This document shows positions 24,553 through 47,909 of a stretch of DNA of 64,000 nt, piece by piece. The notes beneath the pieces were generated by a model. The model was not told the origin of the DNA. It was given only the letters and a program-made list of their open reading frames with translations, and did not search any database. Position 1 is the stretch's first letter. Every line of letters begins with the position of its first letter. The position numbers and the translations under genes are program-made. Origin of the DNA: an uncultured Flavonifractor sp. (GTDB lineage Bacteria; Bacillota; Clostridia; Oscillospirales; Oscillospiraceae); contig CALWXT010000001.1 in the NCBI GenBank assembly GCA_944385575.1, positions 22,484 through 86,483 of the forward strand, read 5' to 3'.

Positions 24553-24574
24553 CCCTTAAACCGTTATACAGTAA

Positions 24575-24617: not shown

Positions 24618-24633
24618 AGGAAGGAATTTTCTT

Positions 24634-25789: not shown

Positions 25790-26315
25790 GCTCTTTTGAG
25801 ATGCATTATGATTAAAGTAAATCTAAATGGGAAAATAGAGTCGGCGAGCAACAATTTTGCTGGGGACAGGTAGATGTCGGAGCCTGTTAAATATAAATTC
25901 GATCCCTTGGGCGGCTGCTCTGACATGCATCATCTGCTTTGCTGTCAGCCACCAAAATAACCGCTGTTCGGCTGGGTGATGTACAGAAAAAGGGAAAAAT
26001 TAAAATAGGATAACCGGATGTGACAAAAACGGGGAAAACCTGTGTAATTTCCCAAAAGTACCCCCATATTCCATGCGGTTTTTCCTCTTTCCCACCTTGA
26101 AAATACTGGGACGGGTTGCTATAATTAAGATTAATGACGAAAAAGCAGCAGGGTTATTGCGCGGAAATTTTTTGATTCTTACAGAGGTGGTATATTTTCG
26201 GGAAAATACAGGTTTTAGGCGAAAAACGTCCTATACTGTGTGCATACGGAATGCTGAGAACCTGTAGGAGTCCTGCAGATTTTTATTTTGTTTGAGAGAA
26301 AGACAGGGATATGGG
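25790..26315. other. Leader region of the surface-polymer locus
   Basis: No supported gene in 526 bp. A 64-residue open frame at 26073-26267 has no RBS or recognisable composition. The region holds the locus promoter (26097-26125) and about 185 nt of 5' untranslated leader, which could carry regulatory structure. Confidence 0.6.
26097..26125 (+). promoter_or_regulatory. Sigma-A-type promoter of the surface-polymer locus
   Basis: TTGAAA (26097-26102), 17-nt spacer, consensus TATAAT (26120-26125). The leader to the first start codon is about 185 nt. Confidence 0.8.
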
Positions 26316-27542
26316 ATGAAGCCGTTTGAGAAAAGAGTTTGGTTGGCCACTCCTACCATGCATGGAGAGGAACTGACCTATATCACTAAGGCCTATGAAA
26401 CCAACTGGATGTCCACTGTGGGAGAGAACATCAACGAGGTGGAGCGTATCACCTGTGAAAAGGTGGGGTGTAAATATGCGGTTGCCTTGTCCGCAGGTAC
26501 CGCTGCCCTTCACTTGTGCGTGAAGTTGGCGGGGGTAAAGCCAGGGGACAAGGTGTTTTGCTCTGATATGACCTTTAGTGCCACCGTGAACCCGGTGGTG
26601 TATGAGGGAGGTATCCCGGTATTTATTGATACGGAGCGGGAGACCTGGAACATGGACCCGGTGGCTCTGGAAAAGGCGTTTGAACTGTACCCAGAGGTGA
26701 AGGTGGTCATGATGGCCCATCTGTACGGGACCCCGGGCAAGATAGATGAGATCCGCTCTGTCTGTGAGAAGCACCGGGCTGTTCTCATCGAGGATGCCGC
26801 CGAGTCCCTGGGAGCCACCTACAAAGGGGCGCAAACCGGAACCTTCGGTACCTGTCGCGCTATTTCCTTTAATGGCAATAAGATCATCACCGGTTCTTCC
26901 GGCGGTATGCTCCTGACTGACGATCTGGAGGCAGCCAATAAAGCCCGGAAGTGGTCCACCCAGAGTCGGGAGAATGCCCCTTGGTATCAGCATGAGGAGT
27001 TGGGCTATAACTATCGCATGAGCAATGTGATTGCCGGTGTAGTTCGGGGACAGTATCCTTATCTGGAAGAGCATATTGCCAAGAAAAAAGCCATCTATAT
27101 GCGTTACAAAGAGGGCTTCAAGGATCTGCCTGTGACTATGAATCCCTATGACGAAGTTAACAGCGAACCCAATTTCTGGCTCTCCTGCCTGCTCATCGAC
27201 CGGGAAGCCATGTGCCCCCAGATCCGCGGAGAGCAAAAGGCACTCTTTATCTCTCAGCCCGGAAAAAGTTGCCCCACTGAGATTCTGGAAACACTGGCGG
27301 CTTACAATGCTGAGGGCCGGCCTATCTGGAAGCCCATGCATATGCAGCCGATCTACCGGATGCACGGCTTTGTCACCCGAGAGGGAAACGGCCGGGCCAA
27401 CACTAACGCTTATATCGCCGGCGAGGGCATGGACGTGGGCGTGGATATCTTCGAGCGCGGCTTGTGCCTGCCCAGTGATATTAAGATGACCGCGGCGGAG
27501 CAGGACATTGTAATCGACATTGTTCACAGGTGTTTTGAGTAA
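26316..27542 (+). CDS. DegT/DnrJ/EryC1/StrS-family PLP aminotransferase
   Basis: A 408-residue nucleotide-sugar aminotransferase. It opens with LATPTMHGEELTYITKAYETN, the usual 'plus-plus-Gly' N-terminus. It has ALSAGTAALHLCVKLAGV (PLP phosphate pocket), IEDAAESLGATYKG (PLP ring Asp) and the internal aldimine lysine in FNGNKIITGSSGGML. Relatives transfer an amino group from glutamate to a UDP- or GDP-4-keto-6-deoxysugar. A matching 4,6-dehydratase is encoded at 54867-56831, so a UDP-4-amino-4,6-dideoxysugar (as in bacillosamine synthesis) is a reasonable product. ATG 26316 is the chosen start. It is the first gene of the polymer locus. Confidence 0.92.
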   Translation: MKPFEKRVWLATPTMHGEELTYITKAYETNWMSTVGENINEVERITCEKVGCKYAVALSAGTAALHLCVKLAGVKPGDKVFCSDMTFSATVNPVVYEGGIPVFIDTERETWNMDPVALEKAFELYPEVKVVMMAHLYGTPGKIDEIRSVCEKHRAVLIEDAAESLGATYKGAQTGTFGTCRAISFNGNKIITGSSGGMLLTDDLEAANKARKWSTQSRENAPWYQHEELGYNYRMSNVIAGVVRGQYPYLEEHIAKKKAIYMRYKEGFKDLPVTMNPYDEVNSEPNFWLSCLLIDREAMCPQIRGEQKALFISQPGKSCPTEILETLAAYNAEGRPIWKPMHMQPIYRMHGFVTREGNGRANTNAYIAGEGMDVGVDIFERGLCLPSDIKMTAAEQDIVIDIVHRCFE

Positions 27543-27760: not shown

Positions 27761-28975
27761 ATGGTTTTTACAAAATCGAGTAAGCTTGATAATGTTTTAT
27801 ATGATGTTCGTGGACCGGTAGTTGATGAAGCCGCGCGAATGGAAGAACACGGTTTGCATATTTTGAAATTAAACATTGGCAATCCTGCTCCATTCGGGTT
27901 CCGGGCGCCTGATGAAGTCGTAACAGATATGCGATCGGCCATAGCAGATTCAGAAGGGTATTCTGATTCCAGAGGTTTGGTGGCAGCAAGAAAAGCAATT
28001 ATGCAATATGCGCAGCTCAAGTCTATCCCTAATGTGAATATGAAAGATATCTACACGGGAAATGGGGCAAGTGAGCTTATCCAGCTTTCACTTCATGCAT
28101 TGCTGAATAACGGCGACGAGGTTTTAGTTCCCGCACCAGACTATCCTCTCTGGACCGCATGTGTTAACCTTGCAGGGGGAAAGGCTGTTCATTATATCTG
28201 CGATGAAAAAGCCGACTGGTATCCAGATATTGCGGATATGGAATCGAAAATCACAGACAAGACAAAGGCGATTGTTGTGATTAATCCAAACAATCCAACA
28301 GGAGCCTTGTATCCGAAAGAAGTACTGGAACGGATAGTAGATGTTGCCCGTCGTCATGGCCTCATGATTATGGCTGATGAAATTTATGATCGACTGGTTA
28401 TGGACGGAGAAAAGCATATTTCGATTGCTTCTCTTGCTCCGGACCTGTTTTGCGTTACTTTTAATGGGCTTTCTAAATCACATATGGTGTGTGGTTTCCG
28501 GGTCGGCTGGATGATCTTCAGCGGAAACAAAAAACTGGGTAGAGATTACATCAGCGGTGTTAATATGCTCTCTAATATGCGCCTTTGCTCCAATGTACCA
28601 GGCCAATCCATTATTCAGACGGCTCTTGGCGGCTACCAGAGTGCCAATGAGTATATTGTTCCCGGCGGAAGAATTTATGAGCAGAGGGAAGCAATCTATA
28701 AACTGCTAAATAACATTCCGGGTATCAGCGCAAAGAAGCCAAAGGCTGCGTTTTATATTTTCCCCAAAATTGATACAGCCAAATTTAATATCACAGATGA
28801 TAATCAGTTTGCTTTGGATTTTTTGAAGGAGAAGCGAGTTCTTGTGGTGCCAGGCCGTGGTTTCAACTGGGAACAGCCGGATCACTTCAGAATTGTATAT
28901 CTGCCGCGTCCCTCTGTATTGAAGGAGGCCATGGACAAACTGAGTGATTTCTTAGAGACTTATCATCAAGGCTGA
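27761..28975 (+). CDS. Class I/II PLP aminotransferase, alanine transaminase-like (AlaA group)
   Basis: A 404-residue enzyme whose length and motifs match AlaA-type glutamate-pyruvate transaminases: LNIGNPAPFGFRAPDEV, YTGNGASELIQLSLHALL, PAPDYPLWTACVNLAGG, NPNNPTGALY and the PLP-lysine segment NGLSKSHMVCGFRVGW. ATG 27761 follows GGAGGACA; the frame extends upstream without an RBS. It would supply L-alanine, which fits a locus containing a D-Ala-D-Ala-type ligase. This gene and the next two are visibly more AT-rich than the flanking genes, suggesting a separate origin. The 218-bp gap before it holds no gene. Confidence 0.88.
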   Translation: MVFTKSSKLDNVLYDVRGPVVDEAARMEEHGLHILKLNIGNPAPFGFRAPDEVVTDMRSAIADSEGYSDSRGLVAARKAIMQYAQLKSIPNVNMKDIYTGNGASELIQLSLHALLNNGDEVLVPAPDYPLWTACVNLAGGKAVHYICDEKADWYPDIADMESKITDKTKAIVVINPNNPTGALYPKEVLERIVDVARRHGLMIMADEIYDRLVMDGEKHISIASLAPDLFCVTFNGLSKSHMVCGFRVGWMIFSGNKKLGRDYISGVNMLSNMRLCSNVPGQSIIQTALGGYQSANEYIVPGGRIYEQREAIYKLLNNIPGISAKKPKAAFYIFPKIDTAKFNITDDNQFALDFLKEKRVLVVPGRGFNWEQPDHFRIVYLPRPSVLKEAMDKLSDFLETYHQG

Positions 28976-29006
28976 TTCATTGTGAAGTGTGATGAGGGAG
29001 TAGTAT

Positions 29007-30308
29007 ATGAGGCAAGATTTAAACGGTAAAACCATTTTATTTTTGGATGGGTCAACCGGAAATATTTGTGTAATTGAAAAAGCTAAAGAATTAGGAGCAC
29101 GGACAGTTGTCGCAAATTTCTTTCCTCTGGAGAGCCAACCTGCTAAGCAGATTGCTGATAAGGCATACCAGGTAAACTTCTGGGATGCCGATATCATGAA
29201 AAAACTGGTTGAAGACGAACATATCGACGGTATCTTCACTACGGCATCTGACTCACATCTCAGAGCTTATTCCCTGATATGTGAAGCAAACAATTTTTTT
29301 GCATACGCCACAAGCGAACAAATTAACGATATCTCGAACAAAATTCGTTTTAAGGAGCTTTGTCCACAGTACGGGCTTAAAGTCATTCCAGAGTACACAA
29401 TTTCTGAAGGTGAAGATATACACGACCTGGATATCCAGTATCCTGTGATGGTTAAATCTCCGGACAATTCCGGTGGCTCTAAAGGTATGACGCTGGTTTA
29501 TGAGGAAAGCGCATTGCCTGCGGCTATTGAATTGGCGAAGGAGTACTCTCCTACCAAAAGTGTCGTGGTAGAGCATTTCATTGATGGCGACGAGTTTGTC
29601 ATCAACTATATGTTTGTGGATGGAGAACCCTTTGTGCTTTATACAAAGGACTATTGCAAGGCAATCCAAAGCGGGCAGGTACTTCGAGATAACGCAATGA
29701 TCAGTCCTTCAAAATTTGAGAAGCTGTTTTATGAGAAAGCAGATCAGAAGCTCCGTGCGATGTTTAAAGATATTGGCATGACAAACGGCATCATTTTTCT
29801 TCAGTGTTTTGTTGAAGATGGCGAGCTTTACTTCTTTGAGGGCGGTTGCCGTGCCGGTGGTGCGGATGAGTATTATCTGTGGGAAGATATCTACGGGATT
29901 GACTTTATCAAATGCCTTTTACGGTTTGCGGCTTATGGAAGCTATAACGAGCCGTCTCTAAAGGAAAAACTGCTGAATACAAAACAGCAAAGGATTGAGA
30001 GCGTGCTGAATATTCTGCTCAATCCTGGCACAATCCAAGAAATTCGCGGGGTGGAAGAAGTCAAAAGAATGCCGGGTGTGCTGACGGCCCATGTTAATGT
30101 CTCGCCTGGAGAGTCAATTAAGGAGGACTTTACATCTGGGCAGATTGGTATGAGAGTCATGGTAACAGCTCAAGACGGATATGACTACATCCGAATTATT
30201 GAGCAGATTTATTCTACACTGCAGTTTAATACCGCGGATGGCGTTAATTTGCTGAAGCCCAGGATTCGTTTTGAACACTGGCTTTTCAATGAGCCCTGGC
30301 AAAACTGA
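29007..30308 (+). CDS. ATP-grasp enzyme (carboxylate-amine/thiol ligase type)
   Basis: A 433-residue cytoplasmic ligase. The N-terminal Rossmann-like preATP-grasp domain opens TILFLDGSTGNICVIEKAKE. The ATP-grasp core has NKIRFKELCPQYGL, YPVMVKSPDNSGGSKGM (nucleotide-binding lysine and glycine loop) and the Mg2+-binding LYFFEGGCRAGGADE. Such enzymes join a carboxylate to an amine through an acyl-phosphate. No close named homologue is recognised. It is one of three ATP-grasp proteins in the locus, which suggests stepwise addition of amino acids or other acids to a sugar precursor. Confidence 0.87.
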   Translation: MRQDLNGKTILFLDGSTGNICVIEKAKELGARTVVANFFPLESQPAKQIADKAYQVNFWDADIMKKLVEDEHIDGIFTTASDSHLRAYSLICEANNFFAYATSEQINDISNKIRFKELCPQYGLKVIPEYTISEGEDIHDLDIQYPVMVKSPDNSGGSKGMTLVYEESALPAAIELAKEYSPTKSVVVEHFIDGDEFVINYMFVDGEPFVLYTKDYCKAIQSGQVLRDNAMISPSKFEKLFYEKADQKLRAMFKDIGMTNGIIFLQCFVEDGELYFFEGGCRAGGADEYYLWEDIYGIDFIKCLLRFAAYGSYNEPSLKEKLLNTKQQRIESVLNILLNPGTIQEIRGVEEVKRMPGVLTAHVNVSPGESIKEDFTSGQIGMRVMVTAQDGYDYIRIIEQIYSTLQFNTADGVNLLKPRIRFEHWLFNEPWQN

Positions 30309-30348
30309 ATATTCCATGGTTCATCCAGGAAAGGCGGACGATATAAAT

Positions 30349-31005
30349 ATGAACGTATTGGTTTTTGCTCCACATAATGATGATGAAACCATTGGCGTCG
30401 GAGGAACTATTGCAAAGTTGGCAAGAGCCGGACATCACATTACAGTTTGTGAAGTGACAAGTGGGGCGCCTACTCCAGTTGCCATTAAGGTTGTTGAAGA
30501 AGCAAAGAAAGCTCACGCGATTCTTGGAGTCTCTGAGAGCCTTTTTTTAGAATTGCCGGTGGTTGACCTCCATCTAATACCTACCAGAGAGAAAAACAAG
30601 CCCTTTATTGAGTTGGTCGAGCGAGTAAATCCGGATATCGCATTTATTCCGCATCATGGTGACCTGCATACTGACCATGCCACAACAGCTGGAAGCGCAA
30701 TGGTTGCGCTTAGACCAATGCATGCGCCGAATCTAAAGGCACTGTACGCATATGAGACGCTTTCAGAGAGTGAATGGAATGTGCCAGATGGTGCGCACGC
30801 CTTTATTCCGAATACTTGGTGCGATATTACAGACACCATGGATATTAAACTGAAAGCTATGGCCTGCTACGAAACGCAGCTCAGGCCGTTTCCTCATCCC
30901 CGCTCCCTGGAGGCGATTGAGGCGCAGGCAAAGGTCCGTGGTTCTACGGTATGCCTGGAGCGGGCGGAGGCGTTCATACAGCTTCGGGGTGTGCTTTCCT
31001 TTTGA
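30349..31005 (+). CDS. PIG-L/LmbE-family deacetylase
   Basis: A 218-residue zinc-dependent N-acetylglucosaminyl deacetylase-like protein. The signature APHNDDETIGVGG supplies the metal His and Asp pair, and the third ligand region is HHGDLHTDHATT. ATG 30349 is chosen because AGGAAAGG lies just upstream. Family members remove the acetyl group from GlcNAc-linked substrates. Here it could unmask an amino group on the polymer's sugar that is then acylated by an ATP-grasp or Mur-type ligase. That coupling is inferred from context. Confidence 0.88.
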   Translation: MNVLVFAPHNDDETIGVGGTIAKLARAGHHITVCEVTSGAPTPVAIKVVEEAKKAHAILGVSESLFLELPVVDLHLIPTREKNKPFIELVERVNPDIAFIPHHGDLHTDHATTAGSAMVALRPMHAPNLKALYAYETLSESEWNVPDGAHAFIPNTWCDITDTMDIKLKAMACYETQLRPFPHPRSLEAIEAQAKVRGSTVCLERAEAFIQLRGVLSF

Positions 31006-31038
31006 TGAGATAGAAAGACAGAGCGGGAGGTTGCAGGT

Positions 31039-32013
31039 GTGAGCAGGCTATCACGAATCAATAAATGGGTCAACATGGAGAGCAAGCGCAGCGGAAAGAG
31101 CAAGGCCAAGGTGCTCTCCGAGTTTGCCCATGACTATATGACCTATGGGGTCAATCCCAAGGAATATTACTGGTTTGGCTTTGATAAAAAGACGCCGGAG
31201 CAGAAAAAGACGTTTTTCACCAAGAAAATGTTCCTGAAGCTCCTGAAACGGAACAACGACCCGGAGTTTGTGCAGATTCTGAACGACAAATATATTTTCT
31301 CTCAGACGTTTGCGGCGTTTACAGGGCGCAGGGTGATTCGCAGCGGCAGGGACATGGAGACGCAGGCGCTGGAGGACCTTTTGAAGGATACGCAGCGGGT
31401 TGTCTATAAGCCGAAGGACGGCAGCGGCGGCGCCGGCGTGCAGGTGTTTGACAAGAAGGACTATCCGGATGTATCCGTCCTGGCGGACGAGCTGCGCTCC
31501 CTGCCTGACGGAGTGGTGGAGCAGTGGATTGGGCAGCACGAGAGCATGAGCGCGGCCTACCCCGACGCGGTCAACTGCATCCGGGTCGCCACCCTTTACC
31601 GGGATGGCGTGTGCCACTGGCTGGGGGCGGTGTTTACCCTGGGCCGCAACCACAGCAAGATTACAAATTCGTTCCAGGGCGCCCTGTTCGGCCTGATTGA
31701 TGTGGAAACCGGCATCGTGACCACGGACCTGTGCAGCTATTCTGACGAGCTGTTCAAGGTGCATCCCGACACGGGGTTTGTGGCCAGGGGCTTCCAGGTC
31801 CCGTACTGGAAAGAAATTCTGGAGCTGACCGCCAAGGCCGCGGCGGTGGTCCCCCAGGTGGGCTATGTGGGCTGGGACGTTGCCATTGCCGAGAACGGGC
31901 CGGTACTGATTGAGGGCAACAGCGTCTCCGCCGGGTACTATGCCTATCAGCACTACATGCTCCGGGAGGACGGAATGGGCTCCCGGGCGGTGTGGGAGCC
32001 GTATACCATTTAA
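31039..32013 (+). CDS. Sugar-transfer-associated ATP-grasp protein
   Basis: A 324-residue protein of the ATPgrasp_ST type found in polysaccharide clusters. It shows the ATP-binding YKPKDGSGGAGVQVF, the charged AVNCIRVATLYRDG segment, the family hallmark HPDTGFVARGFQVPYWKEIL and the metal-binding PVLIEGNSVSAGY. The N-terminal 90 residues are basic and helical. The start GTG 31039 follows GCGGGAGG. From here to about 41.7 kb base composition is clearly more GC-rich than in the preceding three genes. Its carboxylate and amine substrates are unknown. Confidence 0.88.
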   Translation: MSRLSRINKWVNMESKRSGKSKAKVLSEFAHDYMTYGVNPKEYYWFGFDKKTPEQKKTFFTKKMFLKLLKRNNDPEFVQILNDKYIFSQTFAAFTGRRVIRSGRDMETQALEDLLKDTQRVVYKPKDGSGGAGVQVFDKKDYPDVSVLADELRSLPDGVVEQWIGQHESMSAAYPDAVNCIRVATLYRDGVCHWLGAVFTLGRNHSKITNSFQGALFGLIDVETGIVTTDLCSYSDELFKVHPDTGFVARGFQVPYWKEILELTAKAAAVVPQVGYVGWDVAIAENGPVLIEGNSVSAGYYAYQHYMLREDGMGSRAVWEPYTI

Positions 32014-32036
32014 ACTTGGAAAGGTCGAAAACGGAA

Positions 32037-33095
32037 ATGAAGACAATCTGTGTACTGTTCGGCGGCAAATCCAGCGAGTTCTATGTGTCCTGCAAGTCCG
32101 CATACACCATTATCACCCACATTCCCCGCGAAACATATAATGTGATTCCGGTGGGCATTACCCAGCAGGGTGACTGGTATTTGTATGAGGGGGATATTGA
32201 ACTGCTTCCGGAGGCCAAGTGGCTGGAGTCAGAGGAGAAGTGCCCAGCGTCCTTCTTGACCAACTCTCGTTATCCCGGCCTGACGGTGTTCCGGGACACG
32301 GGCATGGAGCAGATTGCCGTCGATGCGGTATTCCCGGTGCTCCACGGGAAAAACGGAGAGGACGGCACTATCCAGGGTCTGCTGGACATGCTGGAAATCC
32401 CCTATGTGGGCTGCGGCCTGCTTTCTTCCGCCATGTCCATGGACAAGTCCTACACAAAGATTGCGGTGGATACCTTGGGTATTCGCCAAGCTCCCTACGT
32501 TCTGCTTACCAGCAGGAATACCCCGGCCGAGCGAGCGGAAAAAGTGACGCAGGCGGAGAAGGAACTGGGCTATCCCATGTTCATTAAGCCCTGCAAGGCA
32601 GGCTCCTCCTGCGGCGTCTCCAAGGCCAAGGACAGGCAGGAGCTGGAGCGCGCGCTGGACGAGGCCCTGCGGTTTGACAGCAAGGTGCTGATTGAAAAGG
32701 CAATTGTAGGCCGTGAGCTGGAGTGCGCTGTGCTGGATGCGGAGCCGCTGATTGCTTCCAGAGTGGGTGAAATTGTGGTTACGGCGGAGTTTTACTCCTA
32801 TGACGCCAAGTATGCCGACGCTACATCCCGGACCGATACAGAACCGGATCTGCCGGAGGAGGTTGTGGAGCGTATCCAGGATGCGGCCTGCCGGATTTTC
32901 CGGGTGCTGGACTGCCGCGGACTTTCCCGGGTAGATTTCTTCCTGGAGCAGGAGACTGGCGAGATTGTATTCAATGAAATCAATACGTTGCCTGGTTTTA
33001 CTAATATTAGCATGTATCCCATGCTGATGAGCAAAGTAGGTTATCCGTTGCCTGAGTTGGTGGAAAAACTGATTGAGACAGCGTTTATGAAGTGA
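32037..33095 (+). CDS. D-alanine-D-alanine ligase-family protein (Ddl/Van type)
   Basis: A 352-residue D-Ala-D-X ligase. It has the FGGKSSEFYVS opening with the substrate Glu14, VFPVLHGKNGEDGTIQG, GCGLLSSAMSMDK, the ATP-binding PMFIKPCKAGSSCGVSKA, the active-site tyrosine region YSYDAKYADA and the C-terminal NEINTLPGFTNISMYP that binds Mg2+ and the second amino acid. Catalytic residues appear intact. The unusual point is location: within a Wzx/Wzy polymer locus, followed by a MurF-like ligase, rather than beside murF/murE or a vanHX set. Whether the second residue is D-Ala, D-Ser or another amine cannot be read with confidence. ATG 32037 is used; the longer frame overlaps the previous gene. 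Confidence 0.9.
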   Translation: MKTICVLFGGKSSEFYVSCKSAYTIITHIPRETYNVIPVGITQQGDWYLYEGDIELLPEAKWLESEEKCPASFLTNSRYPGLTVFRDTGMEQIAVDAVFPVLHGKNGEDGTIQGLLDMLEIPYVGCGLLSSAMSMDKSYTKIAVDTLGIRQAPYVLLTSRNTPAERAEKVTQAEKELGYPMFIKPCKAGSSCGVSKAKDRQELERALDEALRFDSKVLIEKAIVGRELECAVLDAEPLIASRVGEIVVTAEFYSYDAKYADATSRTDTEPDLPEEVVERIQDAACRIFRVLDCRGLSRVDFFLEQETGEIVFNEINTLPGFTNISMYPMLMSKVGYPLPELVEKLIETAFMK

Positions 33096-33137
33096 AAGGC
33101 AACCGTATTGGCAGGTAGCAAGGGAGCAAAGAGGACG

Positions 33138-34445
33138 ATGGAACATCAGGAACTTTCATTGAATAAAATTATTCGTAGTGATACGAATGAATATGCGGAG
33201 ATTGCCTTTGAGCTGTCGCTGGGAGACAAGCGGGAGAACCTCTGGTACCGGGTGAAGCCGGAACATGGTCAGTATCTCTGCGACGACCGTGCGGACAGCT
33301 TTATTGTAACCTTTTTTGCCTTTGCCATGGAGCGGGGGCTGAATCTGAGGAGCGCCTATCCCGTGTCGCAAAAGCTGTGGTACCAGCTGACCACGCAGGT
33401 TATGCCCCAGCTGGCGGTGACAAGCAAGGGCCTGGGGCAGGAAATTGAGATTTTTGCCGAAAAGGTTACGGAGCCCTATCCCGGCAGCCGCGGGGTAGGT
33501 ACCGGAATGTCCTGCGGCGTGGATTCTTTTGCTACACTGTATGAATATACGGAGCTTTGCGATCTGCCGGAATATAGGCTTACTCACCTGACTCACTTTA
33601 ATGTGGGTGCCCACCATGGCCAGACCGGCTCCTTTGACGCCGAGCTGCAAAGAAGGCTGTACCAAAAAGATGTGGCCATGGTGCAGAAATTCTGTGATAC
33701 GTATGGCTATCAGCTGGTGGCGGTTGATTCCAACCTGACCGAGGTGCTCGACCGCTTTTGGGGCTATGTGCCGTTTAGCGCGACCCACACATACAGAAAT
33801 GTGGGAACTGTTCTCCTGCTGCAAAAACTCTTTTCCAAGTACTATTACTCCCCGGCGTACAACCTGGACCACTTTATCTGCAAGCTGGGGGAGGATACCG
33901 CGGCGTATGAGAAATACCTTCTCCCCAACCTGTGCACAGAGACCACCAGCTTTTACAATTCCAACCGCAGCTGGACCCGGGAGGAAAAGCTGAAGCGGAT
34001 TGCGGAATTCCCCCAGAGCTACGATTGGCTGAAGGTATGCGTGAAAAGTGACACAAACTGCTGCAAGTGTGTGAAATGCATGCGGACGATTCTGGGGCTG
34101 GAGGCCATTGGGAAAACGCATCTGTATGCCCGGGCGTTTGACCCCCAGACAGTGGCAGACAGCCGGGAGCGGCTGAAAACGTATATGCTCTGTCAGGTCA
34201 AAAAGGGAGATTTGCTCCATAAGGAGATTTACGAGGAGGCCATTAAGAACGGCATGACCTTTTCCGCCAGGAGCAAGGCCTACGCGGCAATGTACCGCCT
34301 TTCCCTGAAGGTGCTGCCCAGAAAACTCTATGTTAAGATAAAAAAGAGAAGCCTGAACCATACGCTCCAGGTGGATGTCAACGAGCTGTTCACCCAGGCG
34401 TCCGAGCAGCGGCGGAGCGAACTGAGAAAGCAGGCAAGGAAGTAA
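33138..34445 (+). CDS. PP-loop (N-type ATP pyrophosphatase) protein with Cys cluster, unknown role
   Basis: A 435-residue protein. Residues about 120-134 read GVGTGMSCGVDSFATL, a PP-loop of the S-G-G-x-D-S class with one Gly replaced by Cys. A later cluster, DTNCCKCVKCMRTILG (CCxCxxC), resembles a zinc site like those of QueC-type PP-loop enzymes. Such enzymes adenylate a carboxylate or amide and use ammonia, sulfur or an amine. The N-terminal 115 residues and C-terminal basic helices are not recognised. It sits between the Ddl-like and MurF-like genes. I do not assign a reaction; an amidation or amide-forming step on the polymer precursor is a possibility only. ATG 33138 follows AGGGAGCAAAGAGG. 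Confidence 0.72.
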   Translation: MEHQELSLNKIIRSDTNEYAEIAFELSLGDKRENLWYRVKPEHGQYLCDDRADSFIVTFFAFAMERGLNLRSAYPVSQKLWYQLTTQVMPQLAVTSKGLGQEIEIFAEKVTEPYPGSRGVGTGMSCGVDSFATLYEYTELCDLPEYRLTHLTHFNVGAHHGQTGSFDAELQRRLYQKDVAMVQKFCDTYGYQLVAVDSNLTEVLDRFWGYVPFSATHTYRNVGTVLLLQKLFSKYYYSPAYNLDHFICKLGEDTAAYEKYLLPNLCTETTSFYNSNRSWTREEKLKRIAEFPQSYDWLKVCVKSDTNCCKCVKCMRTILGLEAIGKTHLYARAFDPQTVADSRERLKTYMLCQVKKGDLLHKEIYEEAIKNGMTFSARSKAYAAMYRLSLKVLPRKLYVKIKKRSLNHTLQVDVNELFTQASEQRRSELRKQARK

Positions 34446-34448
34446 GTC

Positions 34449-35975
34449 ATGGTGTTGAGAAAATTTGCGGCGAAGCGCAGAGCGCACGTCAAGAAAGAGC
34501 TTTATCAGCAGGCGCAGGAGCGCATCCGTCAGGGCAGCGGCTCCTTTTTGTCCATCCGCCAGTGCTGTGAGGTACTGGGTGTAAATCCTGCCGCGGTAAA
34601 GCTGGCCCCGGGACAGAACCTGGATGAGCCGTTTACCTGTATCTGTGCCTGGGACTACTATCTGATTCCGGGCAGCCTCTATGCCGCGCTCCCCCTATAC
34701 GCCAACCTCTCCCCGGAGCAGGCCATGGCCAGGGGCGCGAAGGCGCTGCTCACCGACAAGCAGGAGGGGAACTATCCCTGCGTGGTGGTTCCCGACGTGC
34801 TGGAAGCCTACTGCAAGCTGTGCGGATATCTTGAGAGCCTGACCCACCGGCGGACGGTGGCGGTCACGGGAAGCGTAGGCAAAACCACCACCAAGGACAT
34901 GGTTAAGTCGGTATTTTCCCAGGCCTGTCAAACCTTCTGCGACGTGGAAAATAACAATATGGCCACGCTGGTGGGCTATCTGGTCCAGCACATCCCCCAG
35001 CAGGCGGAATGCTATGTGCAGGAGGTCCATGAGGGGGACCCCGGCTCCGCGCGGAGCATTTCGAGCATTATTCATCCGGACATTGCCGTTATCACCAACA
35101 TCGGGGAGTCCCATTTGGGGAATTTTGGCTCCTATGAGGGCCTGGTTAAGGGCGTGACCGACATTACTGCCGGGATGCCGGAAAACGGTATTGTGATCCT
35201 GGACGGAGAGGATGAGCCCTCCGTCTCCGCCGCCTGGGACAGGCGGGTAATCCGGGTCAGCACGGCGAATCCCGGGGCGGACTACTATGCGGACCATATT
35301 ACCACCGCCGAAAACGGGCTAAGGTTTGATGTTGTTTTTGAAAAGGGCAGGCAGCCTGTGCAGCTGAAGCTGTACGGACTCCATAATGTTACGGACGCGC
35401 TGCTGGCCTTCGCGGCCGGCGCGGAGGCGGGGATCGCCCCGGAAAAAATTGCGCGGGGCCTGGCGGAATATACCCCCAGAGGCATGCGCCAGAACGTGGT
35501 AAAGGCGGGAGGACGCCTGCTTTACCTGGACTGTTTCAATGCCGCGGTCAAATCCATGCAGACGGCGCTGGACACGCTGTGCGGGCTCCCCGTCGGGCGG
35601 GGCGGCAAGCGGGTGGCCGTGCTTGGAGACATGGCGGAGCTGGGCGGGGAAGCGGAGGCCATGCACCGCGAGGTGGGCCGGATAGCCGCCCGTTCCGGGA
35701 TTGACACGCTGATATGCTATGGGCCGCTGTCGGTCGGCATGGCGGAGGAGGCCCGCAAAGCGGGCGGGGTTTCCGTGTTCCACGCGGCGGATTTGGCGGA
35801 GCTCAACCGCCTGATAAAACAGCAGGTCGGGCGCAGCGACGCGGTCCTTTTCAAGGCCAGCCATGCCACCAATCTGATTGCCGCCGTACGGGCCAATTAC
35901 CCTCTGGTATACTTCCGGGCCGTTTATCTGGACCGCCTGCGCAGGCATTTCGCCCGGACCGCCAGTCTGAAATGA
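34449..35975 (+). CDS. MurF-like Mur ligase in polymer locus
   Basis: A 508-residue three-domain ligase. The central ATPase domain has TGSVGKTTTKD (Walker A, residues 141-147), VENNNMATLVGYL, VQEVHEGDPGSARS and PDIAVITNIGESHLGNFGS, all as in MurF. The C-terminal domain has YTPRGMRQ and GDMAELGGEAEAMHREVG. In MurF the first domain binds UDP-MurNAc-tripeptide through a DSR motif; here the aligned site reads ICAWDYYLIPGSLYAALP, and the C-terminal DxYNANP motif is DCFNAAVKS. Both changes suggest a different acceptor, possibly the amino-sugar nucleotide of this locus. It begins 3 nt after the previous stop and overlaps the next gene by 4 bp. Confidence 0.88.
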   Translation: MVLRKFAAKRRAHVKKELYQQAQERIRQGSGSFLSIRQCCEVLGVNPAAVKLAPGQNLDEPFTCICAWDYYLIPGSLYAALPLYANLSPEQAMARGAKALLTDKQEGNYPCVVVPDVLEAYCKLCGYLESLTHRRTVAVTGSVGKTTTKDMVKSVFSQACQTFCDVENNNMATLVGYLVQHIPQQAECYVQEVHEGDPGSARSISSIIHPDIAVITNIGESHLGNFGSYEGLVKGVTDITAGMPENGIVILDGEDEPSVSAAWDRRVIRVSTANPGADYYADHITTAENGLRFDVVFEKGRQPVQLKLYGLHNVTDALLAFAAGAEAGIAPEKIARGLAEYTPRGMRQNVVKAGGRLLYLDCFNAAVKSMQTALDTLCGLPVGRGGKRVAVLGDMAELGGEAEAMHREVGRIAARSGIDTLICYGPLSVGMAEEARKAGGVSVFHAADLAELNRLIKQQVGRSDAVLFKASHATNLIAAVRANYPLVYFRAVYLDRLRRHFARTASLK

Positions 35976-37039
35976 GCGGCGTCAGAGAGATAGGCAGCGA
36001 GTTCTGGCAGGCGGAGTGTGGGGGCGCTTATCAGGGAAGGGGAAACACTTATCTCTCTGGAAGGACGGCTCTGAGTGCAATCCTGCTGGATCTGAAAGCA
36101 CGAGGAGCGGATTCCGTGTGCCTGCCGGATTACTGCTGTGAATCCATGATTGAGCCGTTTCTGCGGCAGAATATCCGTATCGGCTTCTATCCTACGGCGG
36201 CGGACAGCTCCGGTATAATTCTTTTTCCGGACGCAGCCGCTGGCTTTGATGCCATACTGCTTGTCAATTATTTTGGGTTTATGACCGAGCGCGTGGAAAT
36301 GTGCGCCAGGCAATGCCGCGAACGCGGCCAGCTGGTGCTGCTGGACCTGACTCACGCGGTATTTGAGACGGAGCGAGCCTGGCCGGCGGATTATATCTTT
36401 GGCAGCTACCGCAAATGGAGCGGGGTGGAAGCCGGCTTTGCGTGGAGGCAGGGCGGGGAGAATGTCGTGCTGCCCGCCTGGCCGCTGAACCGGGCTGGCC
36501 TGCGCTATCTGGAACTGCGCAGGCGGGCCAGGGAGCAAAAGACGGCATTTGTGACTGGTGGATATGAGGATGAGCGGCTGCGCCGGGCCCAGCTTGCCGC
36601 GTTTTCAGAGGCGGAGGAGATGCTGGATGCGGATTATCTCAGCGACACGGATGAGGAGAACAAGGCGCGGCTAAGGAGCCTTGACGGGGCGTACATAAAA
36701 GCGCGCCGGCGGGAAAACGCCGCGGTGGTGTATCAGTACCTCGCGCGGATAAAGGGGTGCAGGCCCCTCTTCCCTGCCCTGGACGCGGATGTGACGCCGC
36801 TGGCGGTCCCTGTGCTGGCCGAGGGCGGGCAGCGCGCGCCGCTTCGGGCGTTTCTCCGGGAGCACGGTGTGTTTTGCCCCGTACACTGGCCGCTGTCCGC
36901 CATGCACCGGACGGGGCCGGCCTGCCGGGAGCTGTATGAGAACGAGCTTTCTTTGGTGTGCGACCAGCGATATGACGCATCAGACATGGTGCGGATGATG
37001 GAGACAGTAGAGCAATGGGAGAGAATGCAATTCGTGTAA
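35972..37039 (+). CDS. Divergent fold-type I PLP aminotransferase-like protein
   Basis: A 355-residue protein starting at ATG 35972 in an ATGA overlap with the MurF-like gene. The segment GNTYLSGRTALSAILLDLKA resembles the PLP-phosphate pocket of DegT-type enzymes, LVLLDLTHAVFE provides the PLP-ring Asp and IFGSYRKWSGVEAGFAW offers the probable aldimine lysine. It is shorter and more divergent than the DegT protein at 26316. It may aminate a second sugar position or act on an amino acid. The product is unknown. Confidence 0.72.
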   Translation: MSGVREIGSEFWQAECGGAYQGRGNTYLSGRTALSAILLDLKARGADSVCLPDYCCESMIEPFLRQNIRIGFYPTAADSSGIILFPDAAAGFDAILLVNYFGFMTERVEMCARQCRERGQLVLLDLTHAVFETERAWPADYIFGSYRKWSGVEAGFAWRQGGENVVLPAWPLNRAGLRYLELRRRAREQKTAFVTGGYEDERLRRAQLAAFSEAEEMLDADYLSDTDEENKARLRSLDGAYIKARRRENAAVVYQYLARIKGCRPLFPALDADVTPLAVPVLAEGGQRAPLRAFLREHGVFCPVHWPLSAMHRTGPACRELYENELSLVCDQRYDASDMVRMMETVEQWERMQFV

Positions 37040-38085
37040 TTGAACTGAGCTGCGCGCAGGAGTGGGACCGTATTGTACGCTCTTTTGAAGACCACGATGT
37101 ATACAGCCTCAGCGGTTACGTAAAAGCGTTTCAAATCCATGGCGACGGACAGCCGGTGCTTTTCTACTATGAGGGCGGCGGACTGCGCGGGTTCAACGTG
37201 GCGATGAAGCGGGACATTGCGCAGGACCCCCATTTTTCCGGGCGGCTGGCGCCGGGGACCTGGTTTGACCTTGCCACCCCGTATGGATACGGCGGCTGGC
37301 TGCTGGAGGGGTCCGGGGACACGGAGGAGCTGGACAGAGCCTATTCCGACAAGTGTGCCGCAGAGCATATTGTCTCGGAATTTGTGCGCTATCACCCTGT
37401 GTGGAATAACGCGGAGCGGATGGAGCAGATGTATCAGGTGGTTTACCTGGGCTCCACCATTGCAATGGATTTGCAGGACGCGGATACGATTTGGAGCAAT
37501 ATCGTCAGCAAGAACCGCAATATGATTCGCAAGGCCGAAAAGAGCGGGGTAATTGTCACCCAGGGCAGGGAGCCGGAGCGGTTTGCCGCCTTCCAGCGGA
37601 TGTACAACGAGACCATGCGCAAGGACCGGGCGGAGGCGTACTATTATTTTGAGGACGCGTTTTATGAGAGTATCCGCACAGACCTCTGCGGCAACGCGCA
37701 GGTGTTTCTGGCGGCCTATGAAGACCGGCCAATCGCGGGAGCGATTATGATTTACGCCAACGGAAGGCTGAACTATCACCTTTCCGGCTCGGACATGGCG
37801 TACCGCCCACTGGCGCCCACCAACCTGATTCTGTACAGGGCAGCGCTGTGGGGCAGCGAAAATGGATATAAAACCTTCCATCTGGGGGGAGGGCTCGGCT
37901 CTCAGGAGGACAGCCTGTACAAATTTAAGCGGGCGTTTTACCGGGGAGAGCCCAAGCGGTTTGCCATCGGAAAGAAGATATTTCTGCGGGAGATATACCA
38001 AGAGCTGAACGCGGCACGATCGGACACACCGGAAAGTGCCTTTTTCCCGGAATATCGGAGGCCAGCGGTGCAAAGCGAGGAGTAA
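37015..38085 (+). CDS. FemAB/GNAT-type aminoacyltransferase-like protein
   Basis: A 356-residue protein built of two acetyltransferase-like halves. The C-terminal half has the typical segments NRNMIRKAEKSGV, FLAAYEDRPIAGAIMIYANGRLNYHLSGS, PTNLILYRAALWGSENGYKTFHLGGG and LYKFKRAFYRG, as in FemABX and GNAT_6 proteins. FemAB members transfer amino acids from aminoacyl-tRNA to a peptidoglycan precursor side chain. Location after Ddl-like and MurF-like genes argues for aminoacylation of the surface-polymer precursor. The start ATG 37015 lies inside the preceding gene (25-bp overlap). Confidence 0.85.
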   Translation: MGENAIRVIELSCAQEWDRIVRSFEDHDVYSLSGYVKAFQIHGDGQPVLFYYEGGGLRGFNVAMKRDIAQDPHFSGRLAPGTWFDLATPYGYGGWLLEGSGDTEELDRAYSDKCAAEHIVSEFVRYHPVWNNAERMEQMYQVVYLGSTIAMDLQDADTIWSNIVSKNRNMIRKAEKSGVIVTQGREPERFAAFQRMYNETMRKDRAEAYYYFEDAFYESIRTDLCGNAQVFLAAYEDRPIAGAIMIYANGRLNYHLSGSDMAYRPLAPTNLILYRAALWGSENGYKTFHLGGGLGSQEDSLYKFKRAFYRGEPKRFAIGKKIFLREIYQELNAARSDTPESAFFPEYRRPAVQSEE

Positions 38086-38094
38086 GTATTTAGT

Positions 38095-39639
38095 ATGTCG
38101 GACACAAGAACTGGGAATTCAATTAAAAATTCAGGCGCCACCATTTTTGGACGCGCCGCAACGCTGGTAATGGAGTTTGTGCTCCGTACAGTTCTTATCA
38201 AAACCCTTGGCATTGAGTATGGAGGCGTATCCAGCCTATTTACGGATATTTTGCAGGTTCTCTCCCTGATGGAGCTCGGCCTGGGAAGCGCGATTGTATT
38301 TGCCCTGTACAAACCCCTTGCACAGCAGGATTTTTCAAGGATAAATGCGCTGATGCATTTTTATAAAACCGCATACAACATGATTGCTGCGGGTGTATTT
38401 CTCCTCGGGCTGTGCTTCATTCCGTTTTTGAACGCCATTGTAACCGATGTTCCCAACATCAAAGAGGATATCCGTGTAATTTTCATGCTGTATGTGGCGG
38501 CCTCCTCCTGCTCCTATCTGGTTATCTATAAAGAGACCTTGATTCGGGCCAGCCAGCAGTCCAGGGTTGCGGTCCGGATTGAGATGACGGTGCAAATCAT
38601 ATTTATGGGTCTGGAAAGTCTGGCACTTTTCCTCTTCCATGAATATATGATTTATCTGGTTCTGCGGGTTGTTACATATCTGGTTCGGAACCTTTTAATC
38701 AGCCGGGAAGTGAAAAAGCGATTTCCGCAGGTGAACTTCGGCAGCAAAGAGCGCCTGGGTGAAAAGGACCGGCAGAAGCTGATGCGGGATATCGGCGCGA
38801 TGGCACTGTATAAAGTTTCCGGCGTTGTGCTCAACGGAACGGACAGCATTATCATCTCGGCATTTTTAAGCACAAGTATGGTGGGCATTATGGGCCATTT
38901 CCGTATGCTCTCCAATTGCATTACCAATTTAACCAATAAAGTATGGGCGGCGGTGCTTCCCAGCGTGGGAAATTTGGCCGCGGTTGACCGGGAAAATAAG
39001 CAGTACCGCGTTTTTATGAAGGCCAATTTTGCGTCCTACCTTTTTTCCGGCTTTTGCTCGATAGCCATGTTTCATCTGATGAATCCCCTTGTGACGGTGT
39101 GGCTGGGTGCGGAATATACCGTTTCAACCGCCACGGCGTTTGCCATTGCGTTTAACATATACCTGTTTCTTACCATCCTCCCCTTCCAGACGTTCCGTGA
39201 CGCAAACGGGCTGTTTGTCCAGGGGAAATACAGGCCGGTCATCATGTCGGTCATCAATATTGTGCTCTCCCTTCTCCTGGTAAAGCCGTGGGGGCTTTTC
39301 GGCGTGCTGATTGCCACCCCCATTTCCAGAGTGGCAACCCAGACGTGGTTTGACCCCTATGTGGTTTACAAACACGTGTTTAAACGCTCTCCTGCGCCGT
39401 ATTACAGGGAGTTTGCCTTCCACAGCCTGCTCACATTGGCAATAGGCGCCGTTATCTGGGCTTTGCTGGAGGCGTCCGGGGTTGGCGGCGGTCTCCTGCG
39501 GCTCTTGCTTGGCGGCGTGGTGTGCGTCGTGATTCCACTTTCCGTCTACTGCCTGCTGTTCCGCAAAAACCAGCAGTTTGTGCAGCTGGTAGAGTACGGG
39601 AAGAAATTCTTAAACCGTATCCTGAAGAAGAAAAGGTAA
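38095..39639 (+). CDS. Polysaccharide flippase (Wzx/MATE-like)
   Basis: A 514-residue protein with about 12 to 14 hydrophobic segments, beginning NSIKNSGATIFGRAATLVMEFVLRTVLIKTLG, a pattern typical of Gram-positive Wzx proteins. The segment YGGVSSLFTDILQVLSLMELGLGSAIVFALYKPLA is highly characteristic of this exporter family. It would move the lipid-linked repeat unit across the membrane. It is followed 5 nt later by the polymerase gene. Confidence 0.92.
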   Translation: MSDTRTGNSIKNSGATIFGRAATLVMEFVLRTVLIKTLGIEYGGVSSLFTDILQVLSLMELGLGSAIVFALYKPLAQQDFSRINALMHFYKTAYNMIAAGVFLLGLCFIPFLNAIVTDVPNIKEDIRVIFMLYVAASSCSYLVIYKETLIRASQQSRVAVRIEMTVQIIFMGLESLALFLFHEYMIYLVLRVVTYLVRNLLISREVKKRFPQVNFGSKERLGEKDRQKLMRDIGAMALYKVSGVVLNGTDSIIISAFLSTSMVGIMGHFRMLSNCITNLTNKVWAAVLPSVGNLAAVDRENKQYRVFMKANFASYLFSGFCSIAMFHLMNPLVTVWLGAEYTVSTATAFAIAFNIYLFLTILPFQTFRDANGLFVQGKYRPVIMSVINIVLSLLLVKPWGLFGVLIATPISRVATQTWFDPYVVYKHVFKRSPAPYYREFAFHSLLTLAIGAVIWALLEASGVGGGLLRLLLGGVVCVVIPLSVYCLLFRKNQQFVQLVEYGKKFLNRILKKKR

Positions 39640-39644
39640 TCAAT

Positions 39645-40976
39645 ATGCGAATCAGAATTCCGCTAAAATTTAGGCTGACGGCAGAAGAGCTGGCCTGTAT
39701 GGGCTTATTCCTGTATCTGATTAAAAGCCCCATCAAGACCTTCCTCTATTATGTGCTGCGCACCCCGGCCGAAGTGAACTCGTGGATTGCCATTGTGCTG
39801 AGCTACATTCCGGTGATATTGATTTTGCTGGCGGGCAAAAAGCGGCGCGCATTCCTGCGGTTCGGCTGCGTTTTGCTGTGCATCTTTGCAATCTGCATGC
39901 TTACCTATCTGTTTCATCCGGAGTACGAGCAATGGCTGTTCCAGGGTGAGTTCAATATTTGGCTGGCAATCTTCCGACCGGATATGGCGCCCTACCTCTT
40001 TCTGTTTATCTGCCTGATAGACGATTCGGGCAGGCTGCTGAATACCCTGAAGTGGGCAGGCTTTGTTCTGCTTGCCTACAACGTATACAAGCTGGTATAC
40101 GCGGAGCTGGTCAGAGGCTACTGGGTTGCAACAGGCGTAAACAGAGGTGTAGAAGGCGAGTACAACCTGGGCTTCGGATATGACGTGCTGCTGCTGTTTG
40201 TGCTCTTCTCCATCCTGGGGAAGCGAGAGGGAAAACGGTATTATGTACTCTCCGCCATCTCCCTGCTGTGTATTTTGGTTGCCGGCTCCCGGGGCCCGCT
40301 GGTGGGTGTCGGGCTGGTTGTGCTGCTCCAGCTCTGGGAATATATCCGGGCAAAGCGGCCGATGCAGCGGATGATTTGGATTGGCGGTTTTCTTGTGGTC
40401 TTTGGCCTGATTCTATTCAATTTGTCCTCCCTCCTGATGGGCGCAGGACGGTTCCTCCAGGAGCTGGGGATTTCTTCCCGCACCGTGGAGATGCTGGCAG
40501 ACGGAAGCTATTATACCGAGGACTCGGGGCGCTCTGTGATATGGGGGGTTGCCGGCGACCTGATTCGTACGGGCGGCCCGTTTGGCCACGGAATTTACGG
40601 CGACCGCTACGAGATAGCCCGACAGACCACCCTTTGGATTGGTTACTGTCACAATATTGCCCTTGAAATCCTGGTGGATTTTGGATACCTGCTGGGCGGC
40701 ATCATTCTGGTTGTTATGCTGTACCGGATAGTTCGCATCTTGCGGGCGCCTGAGAGTGAATGGCGAAGCGTGTATCTCATTTTCCTGCTTTCCGCCTCGC
40801 AGCTCATTTTTTCCGGCTCGTTCTGGTATATTTCCACCTTCTGGGGGGCCATAGCCGCGGACATCTGCTGGCGGGAAAAATGCGGCGCAAAAGAGACGGC
40901 TTCGGTCAGGCGGGAAGCCGGAGGAATGCGCCTGTATCCTGTCGGACCGGAGCAGTCCGGGGGACGCCTAGTTTGA
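39645..40976 (+). CDS. O-antigen polymerase/ligase-type membrane protein (Wzy)
   Basis: A 443-residue protein with about 10 to 12 transmembrane segments and one large extracellular loop (about residues 275-345, including SSRTVEMLADGSYYTEDSGRS), the layout of Wzy polymerases and WaaL-type ligases. ATG 39645 is used; the longer frame from 39522 reads through the previous gene. Its position between the flippase and the priming transferase supports the Wzy role. Sequence conservation in this family is too low to give linkage specificity. Confidence 0.85.
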   Translation: MRIRIPLKFRLTAEELACMGLFLYLIKSPIKTFLYYVLRTPAEVNSWIAIVLSYIPVILILLAGKKRRAFLRFGCVLLCIFAICMLTYLFHPEYEQWLFQGEFNIWLAIFRPDMAPYLFLFICLIDDSGRLLNTLKWAGFVLLAYNVYKLVYAELVRGYWVATGVNRGVEGEYNLGFGYDVLLLFVLFSILGKREGKRYYVLSAISLLCILVAGSRGPLVGVGLVVLLQLWEYIRAKRPMQRMIWIGGFLVVFGLILFNLSSLLMGAGRFLQELGISSRTVEMLADGSYYTEDSGRSVIWGVAGDLIRTGGPFGHGIYGDRYEIARQTTLWIGYCHNIALEILVDFGYLLGGIILVVMLYRIVRILRAPESEWRSVYLIFLLSASQLIFSGSFWYISTFWGAIAADICWREKCGAKETASVRREAGGMRLYPVGPEQSGGRLV

Positions 40977-40993
40977 AGGTTGGAGGACAGCCC

Positions 40994-41677: not shown

Positions 41678-41764
41678 GTGCGGGTGCAAAAAAGCGCGGA
41701 AAGGAACGAATGTATGCAAGGAAGCAGGACGTGGATAACGCCTCGTCTGTGAACAATTTGAAGC

Positions 41765-42251
41765 AGTGTCAAGAGAGCGGCATATCTTAAGAAGCATCAT
41801 GTATTTGCGTCGATAGATGAAGGGTACAGCATTCAGACGCGTTCTGTACCGCTGTATGCAAAGCTGATTAAGATTGGGAACAATGTCCATGTGGCGTCAA
41901 ACGTTGGATTTGTAACACATGATGCTTAATAAATCAGATATAGCGAAGGAATTAGCGTGTGGGGAGCGTTTTAAGGAACAAATTGGCTACATTGAGATCG
42001 GAGACAATGTGTTTATTGGCTCCGGAAGCGTTGTGAACAGGGATATTCCGGACAATTGCGTTGCGGCAGGCATTCCTGCCAGAGTGGTAGGTACATTTGA
42101 TGAGTTTGTTAAAAAGCACATAAAGGAAACGACGTATTCTGCGGAATTTGCACCCTCACATGAAAACGTGTGCAAAGAGCTGGCAGAAATTGCGTGGAGT
42201 GAATTCTACAAAAAACGGGAAAATAAAGAAGCGTTGCAAGCGGGTGAATAA
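41765..42251 (+). pseudogene. Decayed hexapeptide-repeat acyltransferase
   Basis: Reading from 41765, frame 2 gives SSVKRAAYLKKHHVFASIDE, then NNVHVASNVGFVTHDA before two stop codons at 41927 and 41930. The continuation (MMLNKSDIAKELACGERFKE, then IGDNVFIGSGSVVNRDIPDN and AAGIPARVVGTFDEFVKKH) is in another frame from 41919. Together they match a left-handed beta-helix sugar acyltransferase. The region between NVFIGS and GSVVNRD appears to lack about 20 residues that normally form another coil. No start codon precedes the first part. The gene is therefore broken by a frameshift, stops and an internal deletion; a 110-residue fragment at 41919 is unlikely to be active. Confidence 0.8.
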
Positions 42252-47897: not shown

Positions 47898-47909
47898 GGA
47901 GGTTCTCGG

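Follow-up and report, generated by a model that had tools for sequence, protein, structure and literature searches.

The DNA analysed here, called the window, is a 64,000-nucleotide stretch of contig CALWXT010000001.1 (positions 22,484 to 86,483) from an uncultured Flavonifractor species (assembly GCA_944385575.1). It is part of contig C1 of a 2.65 Mb draft genome (G000; 204 contigs, 81.9% complete). The window carries a surface-glycan locus in which genes of muropeptide-type families are followed by genes for polymer export. The run begins with an alanine transaminase (AlaA) and continues through ATP-grasp ligases, a PIG-L deacetylase, a D-Ala-D-Ala-type ligase (Ddl2), a PP-loop-like protein, a MurF-type ligase (MurF2), a pyridoxal phosphate (PLP) enzyme (AT2) and a FemX-like transferase to a flippase-like protein, a Wzy_C protein and a priming transferase. 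An earlier reading of the letters and their open reading frames (the sequence-only reading) had named these genes and proposed that muropeptide chemistry is here joined to an exported sugar polymer. All of them were recovered, closely packed on one strand (+) at the coordinates in Table 1 and with family support for most, and the interpretation is partly supported. On the evidence of the genes, the cell probably exports a sugar polymer to which it attaches a cell-wall-like peptide.

Results

Gene families of the cluster

Of the families named by the sequence-only reading, AlaA, the ATP-grasps, PIG-L, Ddl, MurF, FemAB, Wzy_C and the priming transferase were borne out, and the PP-loop protein, the second PLP enzyme and the flippase gave weak matches. 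The best PDB match of the first ATP-grasp ligase (ATPg1) is 4dim, named phosphoribosylglycinamide synthetase (E 4.9e-18), followed by the L-amino acid ligase 3vot (E 1.3e-10). The priming transferase has PDB matches to WbaP as well as to PglC-type (diNAcBac-1-P transferase) structures. AT2 matches no Pfam family, even with the threshold relaxed to E 5, and its ortholog in a related locus, L061, narrowly passes the DegT family (21.6 vs 19.8 bits). At 0.001 the PP-loop protein matches nothing in Pfam or NCBIfam, and it has no PDB sequence match; DUF6395 is its sole hit, at E 0.04, and its fold matches to TilS and QueC lie at E 1.5e-3 to 3.3e-3, none below 0.001. We take its SCGVDS motif to be the PP-loop motif. 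The flippase-like protein has no Pfam match, and its L061 ortholog lacks even the WZX_like match. Among the families expected of a Wzx/Wzy-type locus, Bac_transf, Wzy_C, Wzz and CpsB were matched, the flippase match was weak, and the cluster (26292-43410) has no recognised glycosyltransferase. No cluster gene was assigned to a transpeptidase family.

Ddl2 and MurF2 are separate from the housekeeping copies

Three Ddl-type genes are present in G000: that of the window, one on contig C98 and one on contig C23. The copy on C98 adjoins a full-scoring murF (425 bits, against a TIGR01143 cut-off of 288.6), and MurF2 scores 265 bits, under that cut-off. Because another ddl and murF stand side by side on C98, the possibility that those of the locus are the housekeeping copies, which the sequence-only reading had named as fatal to its proposal, was ruled out. 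The L061 genome also has a separate murF above the cut-off (322 bits) besides its own MurF2 (274 bits). Genes called putative here and below were read from the sequence, the others being family matches. On C23 (L052, 6394-11693) lies a set in the order VanR, VanS, VanG-like ligase, VanY, acetyltransferase and VanT-like racemase, of which VanY, the ligase and the racemase match Pfam and the response regulator, kinase and acetyltransferase are putative.

MurF2 keeps the central and C-terminal domains and the fold of a Mur ligase: it matches the MurF structure 1gg4 (E 1e-45), and its predicted model (pLDDT, the predicted local distance difference test, 81) has MurF 4qf5 as best fold match. A 68-row tree groups MurF2 with its L061 ortholog, L054, L075 and two fusion proteins of L074 in one clade (support 99/94) nested among the housekeeping MurFs. 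The sister of this clade (99/96), on a long branch whose place is unsure, is a fusion of MurF with an S11 D-Ala-D-Ala carboxypeptidase, at 9308-11527 of L105. In MurE and MurF structures, two N-domain motifs located before the P-loop, D[STN]R and a DGH-type motif, contact the uridine moiety of the substrate. Neither occurs in any MurF2-type protein (0/7 each, L149 having been added to this count after the tree), as compared with 56/61 and 59/61 of the other MurFs, a set that counts one locus twice (L066/L078) and in which L077 (the same protein as L105) and L103 have neither motif. Since the motifs are lost, we infer that the acceptor of MurF2 has changed from UDP-MurNAc-tripeptide. Two relatives of this type are fused to a PGA_cap/CapA domain, L054 by Pfam and L149 putatively. 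Profiles of the pseudomurein ligases (pMur) give MurF2 51 bits or less, against 265 for the bacterial MurF model. The clade would be a MurF type that annotation could mistake for an ordinary cell-wall enzyme.

Probable alanine supply and D-Ala-D-Ala ligation

The best NCBIfam model of Ddl2 is D-Ala-D-Ala ligase (423.5 bits, cut-off 262), with VanG second at 382.5 bits, below its curated cut-off of 495. The second-substrate loop of Ddl-type ligases tells D-Ala from D-Ser use; in Ddl2 it reads NISMYP, which is DdlA-type, with the KY pair kept, and in structure 4fu0 it reads SHSRYP. Ddl2 has the N and C domains, the curated model match, the KY pair and the loop of a D-Ala-D-Ala ligase, and its assignment as a VanG-type D-Ala-D-Ser ligase was rejected on both score and loop.

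The conserved block contains its own alanine racemase (Alr), which is 65% identical to the Alr of L061 and 37% identical to each of the other two G000 racemases. In L061 the Alr gene opens the cluster at its 5' end, in the position that AlaA takes in the window. Because these two unrelated alanine-supplying enzymes fill the same slot, they point to alanine as a substrate of the pathway. Of 10 genomes examined, the window's own alone gave an AlaA match at E<=1e-50; five congeners, three other family members and the genome of L061 gave none. The hydantoinase-like and N-carbamoyl amidase-like enzymes encoded within 44378-52594 could in principle also give D-amino acids.

A block shared with a Clostridiaceae genome

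A collection scan with MurF2 returned four loci, among which L061, from the Clostridiaceae metagenome-assembled genome AS08sgBPME_403, is the only close one; L062 proved to be a dcw cluster, L064 looks MurE-like, and L063 is described below. (L-numbers denote fetched loci; congener, family, order, class and phylum genomes are search sets around G000.) L061 carries DegT1 and the complete gene run ATPg1-ATPg3 in the order of the window, at 54-91% protein identity. Synteny continues past ATPg3 through LysR to the hydantoinase-like gene, with an additional MmgE/PrpD-type gene in L061 between ATPg3 and LysR, and this continuation, Alr included, is 65-93% identical. The conserved block thus reaches 53799, well beyond the stretch considered in the sequence-only reading.

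The housekeeping MurFs of G000 and L061, the sole housekeeping pair compared, are 31% identical, a figure that may exaggerate the divergence of the genomes because the L061 protein is a long branch. L061 apparently belongs to another lineage than G000. The block, at 54-91% identity against that 31%, therefore looks horizontally acquired, and we infer from these sequences that such transfer brought it into a variable surface-glycan locus. In the five congeners listed there is no MurF2-like protein at E 1e-60, and in 90 other family genomes the sugar-transfer-associated ATP-grasp (ATPgST) has no match above 37% identity. Congener G139 has an 86% identical DegT1, followed by glycan genes with putative glycosyltransferases. 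The co-occurrence sought by the sequence-only reading was found in another genome and not in the five listed congeners. Across 27761-53799 the G+C content is patchy, 43-51% for AlaA, ATPg1 and ATPg3 to Alr and 50-62% for ATPgST to the priming transferase, which suggests a mosaic history.

Partial recurrence and marker surveys

Apart from the two full blocks, two loci have, judged by gene content, a MurF2-type gene, ATPgST and an exporter together, and one of the pair includes a Ddl. L074 (G488) has a MurF fusion, a Ddl (38% identical to Ddl2), an ATPgST (34%) and CapA in one locus, with putative ABC-exporter, TagF-like and nucleotidyltransferase genes as neighbours. In L149 (G1174, of the window's family) the CapA-MurF fusion lies between two ATPgST genes, with putative ABC exporter genes. 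Near that fusion, a short frame (7706-8302) has a putative start like an alanine racemase N-terminus and may be a remnant. The contig of L054 is too short for its surroundings to be judged.

Searches with the MurF2 marker scored the best three candidates per genome, so that counts of MurF2-type genes are lower bounds. They matched 27/394 order genomes at E<=1e-60 (at least two MurF2-type: own and G099), 8/391 class genomes at E<=1e-80 (at least two: own and G488) and 29/398 phylum genomes at E<=1e-85 (at least one: own; G1045 holds the sister). At E<=1e-40, ATPg1 has matches in two of the 239 phylum genomes searched, and at E<=1e-10 ATPgST has them in 22 of 91 family genomes; both counts include the window's own genome, and the other ATPgST matches are 26-37% identical. 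The carbon-nitrogen hydrolase was matched at E<=1e-70 solely in the window's own genome among 177 order genomes. At E<=0.001 the PP-loop protein has matches in 7 of 295 order genomes, the six besides the window's own being 27-35% identical. At E<=1e-5 no gene like MurF2, Ddl2, Fem or an ATP-grasp lies in the fetched stretches of these relatives, and the PP-loop protein was rejected as a marker of the block; one stretch, L048, includes DegT1 together with a gene like a priming transferase.

Three further arrangements were noted. In L063 (8408-11226, Muribaculaceae) a divergent 532-residue Mur-type protein adjoins a Ddl-type gene (34% to Ddl2). L106 (7555-10062) encodes an 835-residue Ddl-like-MurF fusion, its Ddl part putative, away from any cluster seen. 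In G859 (L124, 15846-18514) a relative of ATPg1 (28-29%) is directly followed by an MmgE/PrpD gene inside a polysaccharide locus.

Table 1. Genes of the locus and its flanks, with window coordinates and supporting matches
Feature	Position	Strand	Support
DegT1, LegC/PglE-type sugar-nucleotide aminotransferase, resident anchor gene	26292..27542	+	Pfam DegT 259 bits; 86% in congener G139, 75% in L061
AlaA-type glutamate-pyruvate aminotransferase (L-Ala supply)	27761..28975	+	Pfam Aminotran_1_2; E. coli AlaA 4cvq 560 bits
ATPg1, ATP-grasp ligase with LAL_C2	29007..30308	+	LAL_C2 41 bits; 81% in L061
PIG-L deacetylase, BshB1-like	30349..31005	+	PIG-L 70 bits; 91% in L061
ATPgST, sugar-transfer-associated ATP-grasp	31039..32013	+	PF14397 (ATPgrasp_ST) 157 bits; 83% in L061
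Ddl2, D-Ala-D-Ala-type ligase	32037..33095	+	Ddl N 121 bits, C 234 bits; 83% in L061
PP-loop (N-type) ATPase-like protein with C-rich motif	33138..34445	+	SCGVDS motif, weak TilS/QueC fold matches; 74% in L061
MurF2, accessory MurF-type ligase	34449..35975	+	MurF 265 bits, best sequence and fold matches MurF; 69% in L061
AT2, divergent DegT-like PLP enzyme	35972..37039	+	only L061 ortholog passes Pfam DegT; 54% in L061
FemX/FemAB-like (GNAT) transferase	37015..38085	+	FemAB 52 bits; FemX 4ii9 E 7e-5; 68% in L061
Flippase-like membrane protein (Wzx)	38095..39639	+	NCBIfam WZX_like E 0.012 (weak), 8 hydrophobic segments; 78% in L061
Wzy_C family polymerase/ligase	39645..40976	+	PF04932 48 bits; 59% in L061
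Priming phosphoglycosyl transferase	40994..41677	+	PF02397 (Bac_transf) 162 bits; 79% in L061
Hexapeptide acetyltransferase remnant, broken	41700..42250	+	same position broken in L061 (17208-17826)
ATPg3, third ATP-grasp	42256..43410	+	ATPgrasp_Ter/PRK12767-like; 74% in L061
LysR regulator	43441..44361	+	70% in L061
Carbon-nitrogen hydrolase (N-carbamoyl amidase-like)	44378..45274	+	93% in L119
MmgE/PrpD family protein	45213..46628	+	76% in L119
Branched-chain amino-acid-type (Liv) ABC importer, five genes	46716..51166	+	binding protein by Pfam, other four named from sequence and gene order, outside the family scans; 82-88% in L119
Hydantoinase/allantoinase-like amidohydrolase	51200..52594	+	88% in L119
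Alanine racemase (Alr) of block	52681..53799	+	TIGR00492 327 bits (cut-off 168)
CapD/PglF-type sugar-nucleotide dehydratase	54867..56888	-	PF02719 383 bits
UDP-GlcNAc 2-epimerase	57762..58853	+	PF02350 409 bits
Wzz chain-length protein, tyrosine-kinase-like ATPase, CpsB phosphatase	59118..61295	+	family matches

Discussion

We lean, with some reserve, towards the interpretation that the locus directs an exported, amino-sugar-based surface polymer bearing a short D-Ala-D-Ala-capped peptide, made by a dedicated muropeptide-type gene set that was acquired as a block. The part of the sequence-only reading that stands in this respect draws on the Alr of the block, the D-Ala-D-Ala-type residues of Ddl2, the non-housekeeping MurF clade, the gene order kept in L061 and the partial recurrence in two other export loci. 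This second set of D-alanine- and peptide-ligating genes is probably transferable.

The steps proposed below build on observed families, gene order, conservation, clade and motif loss, and every substrate and bond in them is a prediction. AlaA and the block Alr would, by their families, provide L- and D-alanine, and D-Ala-D-Ala would come from Ddl2, its specificity being judged from its residues. The dehydratase and DegT1 would yield a UDP-4-amino-6-deoxy sugar, and PIG-L may free another amine. That the acetyltransferase gene is broken in both genomes makes a free 4-amine an attractive candidate for the site on which the ATP-grasp ligases act. These ligases, perhaps with the PP-loop enzyme, would join amino acids and leave a free carboxylate, which MurF2, given its homology and its lost N-domain motifs, might amidate with D-Ala-D-Ala on an acceptor other than UDP-MurNAc-tripeptide; the FemX-like protein could conceivably add an aminoacyl branch. 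In this scheme UDP-amino-sugar intermediates would receive their amino acids and D-Ala-D-Ala cap before export. The priming transferase would place the sugar on undecaprenyl phosphate, and the flippase-like and Wzy_C proteins would export and polymerise it under Wzz, kinase and CpsB control. Each repeat may contain just one sugar, given that the cluster yielded no recognisable glycosyltransferase.

Bacterial muropeptide synthesis resembles the proposed pathway in its Alr, Ddl, MurF and FemX families and in the logic by which D-Ala becomes D-Ala-D-Ala and is then handled by MurF. It differs in that the genes of the locus are second copies, MurF2 lacks the N-domain motifs, ATP-grasp ligases stand in place of MurC, MurD and MurE, none of which was assigned in the cluster, and a priming transferase, a flippase-like protein and Wzy_C take the place of MraY and MurG. 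Archaeal pseudomurein, which is not known to contain D-amino acids, differs also in its ligases, MurF2 being nearest to bacterial MurF. Ligases of the Mur and ATP-grasp types build that non-murein peptide polymer (PMC11915815), and work on non-ribosomal peptide ligases likewise places them in other peptide products (PMC2922099). CapB is described as another Mur-type lineage (PMC11915815). MurF2-type relatives in L054 and L149 carry the CapA fusion; unlike these, MurF2 itself has no CapA domain and sits in a Wzx/Wzy-type locus.

Among the papers searched, the nearest chemistry is that of the peptidylamido-glycan of Clostridioides difficile type B flagellin, whose peptide-amide cap needs an ATP-grasp protein encoded alongside a FemAB-like gene (PMC5207246) and consists of taurine, alanine and glycine (PMC5207245). 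The accessible parts of those papers do not name Ddl, MurF or Alr; that glycan also differs in having glycosyltransferases and in being protein-linked. The nearest gene mix among them is the vanI cluster of Desulfitobacterium, where murF, a D-Ala ligase and, in some strains, the Fem-type vanK lie together (PMC4229326). That cluster, which acts on peptidoglycan, also includes vanX and a VanRS pair, and none of these genes was assigned in the block of the window. No described locus of the make-up reported here was found in the open-licence library searched.

Three other explanations have to be weighed. The product might be a single-sugar glycopeptide, moved by the Wzy_C protein onto an S-layer, pilus or flagellar protein through an O-link, rather than a polymer. 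The Wzy_C family includes O-oligosaccharyltransferases, and its member here is annotated as an O-antigen ligase; the lack of a recognised glycosyltransferase would fit, as would the two putative proteins with S-layer-homology-like repeats directly upstream (22555-25725), and the flagellin glycan is a known peptide-bearing and ATP-grasp-dependent precedent (PMC5207246, PMC5207245). Polymer-control genes for Wzz, the kinase-like protein and CpsB are, however, in the same window, and in G139 the anchor gene is followed by putative genes of an ordinary polysaccharide, so that we regard this explanation as possible, if unlikely. Less probable still is a Van-like resistance or stress module, in which Ddl2, Alr, MurF2 and the FemX-like protein would produce a peptidoglycan precursor of an alternative kind. 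It can call on structure 4fu0, which is listed as D-Ala-D-Ala ligase 7, is taken here to be VanG and is what Ddl2 matches best in the PDB, and on the top NCBIfam model of Alr, VanT-G, which falls below its cut-off, as well as on the murF and vanK of vanI clusters (PMC4229326). Yet among the assigned genes of the block (four importer genes were outside the scan) there is no VanR/S-, VanX- or VanY-type gene, the Van-like set of this genome sits elsewhere, on C23, MurF2 lacks the housekeeping N-domain motifs, and the genes are interleaved with a deacetylase, ligases, a priming transferase and Wzy_C. A scavenging and storage role, in which a hydantoin, ureide or amino-acid uptake operon feeds an extracellular nitrogen-rich peptide polymer, seems very improbable. 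LysR, the carbon-nitrogen hydrolase, MmgE/PrpD, the Liv transporter, the hydantoinase-like enzyme and Alr accompany the polymer genes in both genomes, the G859 polysaccharide locus also pairs MmgE/PrpD with an ATPg1 relative, and the hydrolase was confined to one order genome at its threshold; these enzymes are known by family only, however, and their association may be a co-transfer of neighbours.

Several observations also weigh against the peptide-bearing polymer that we favour. Besides the VanG and VanT-G matches and the long L061 branch already described, the omega loop of Ddl2 reads EPD or DPD where the other aligned Ddl proteins have PA. A 62% identical relative in family member G1192 shows that AlaA is not peculiar to the block. 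The searches gave just two complete copies, in the window and L061; no Ddl is present on the contig of L149, and no comparable cluster surrounds the MurF2-type gene of L075 or the sister-branch gene of L105. Regions around ATPgST in the family have no MurF2-type gene in 19 of 20 cases (25 places gave 20 regions, with own, two in G1182 and one in G1159 left out and the second G1174 place falling inside L149). Finally, the FemX, flippase, AT2 and PP-loop assignments are all weak.

Should the favoured reading prove true, muropeptide enzymes would have been re-used as a transferable kit for a surface polymer bearing D-amino acids. This would matter for the surface that D-Ala-D-Ala-binding antibiotics, lysozymes, penicillin-binding proteins and immune sensors encounter on such cells, and for new origins of cell-wall-like polymers. 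A bolder version, which we hold to be doubtful, is a second, mobile peptidoglycan-like polymer, with a D-Ala-D-Ala-ended peptide on each sugar. It would leave the cell by a Wzx/Wzy-type route and be cross-linked extracellularly by DD-transpeptidases, independently of murein. Near the right end of the locus, a putative serine-recombinase-like gene lies on the minus strand (61484-63088).

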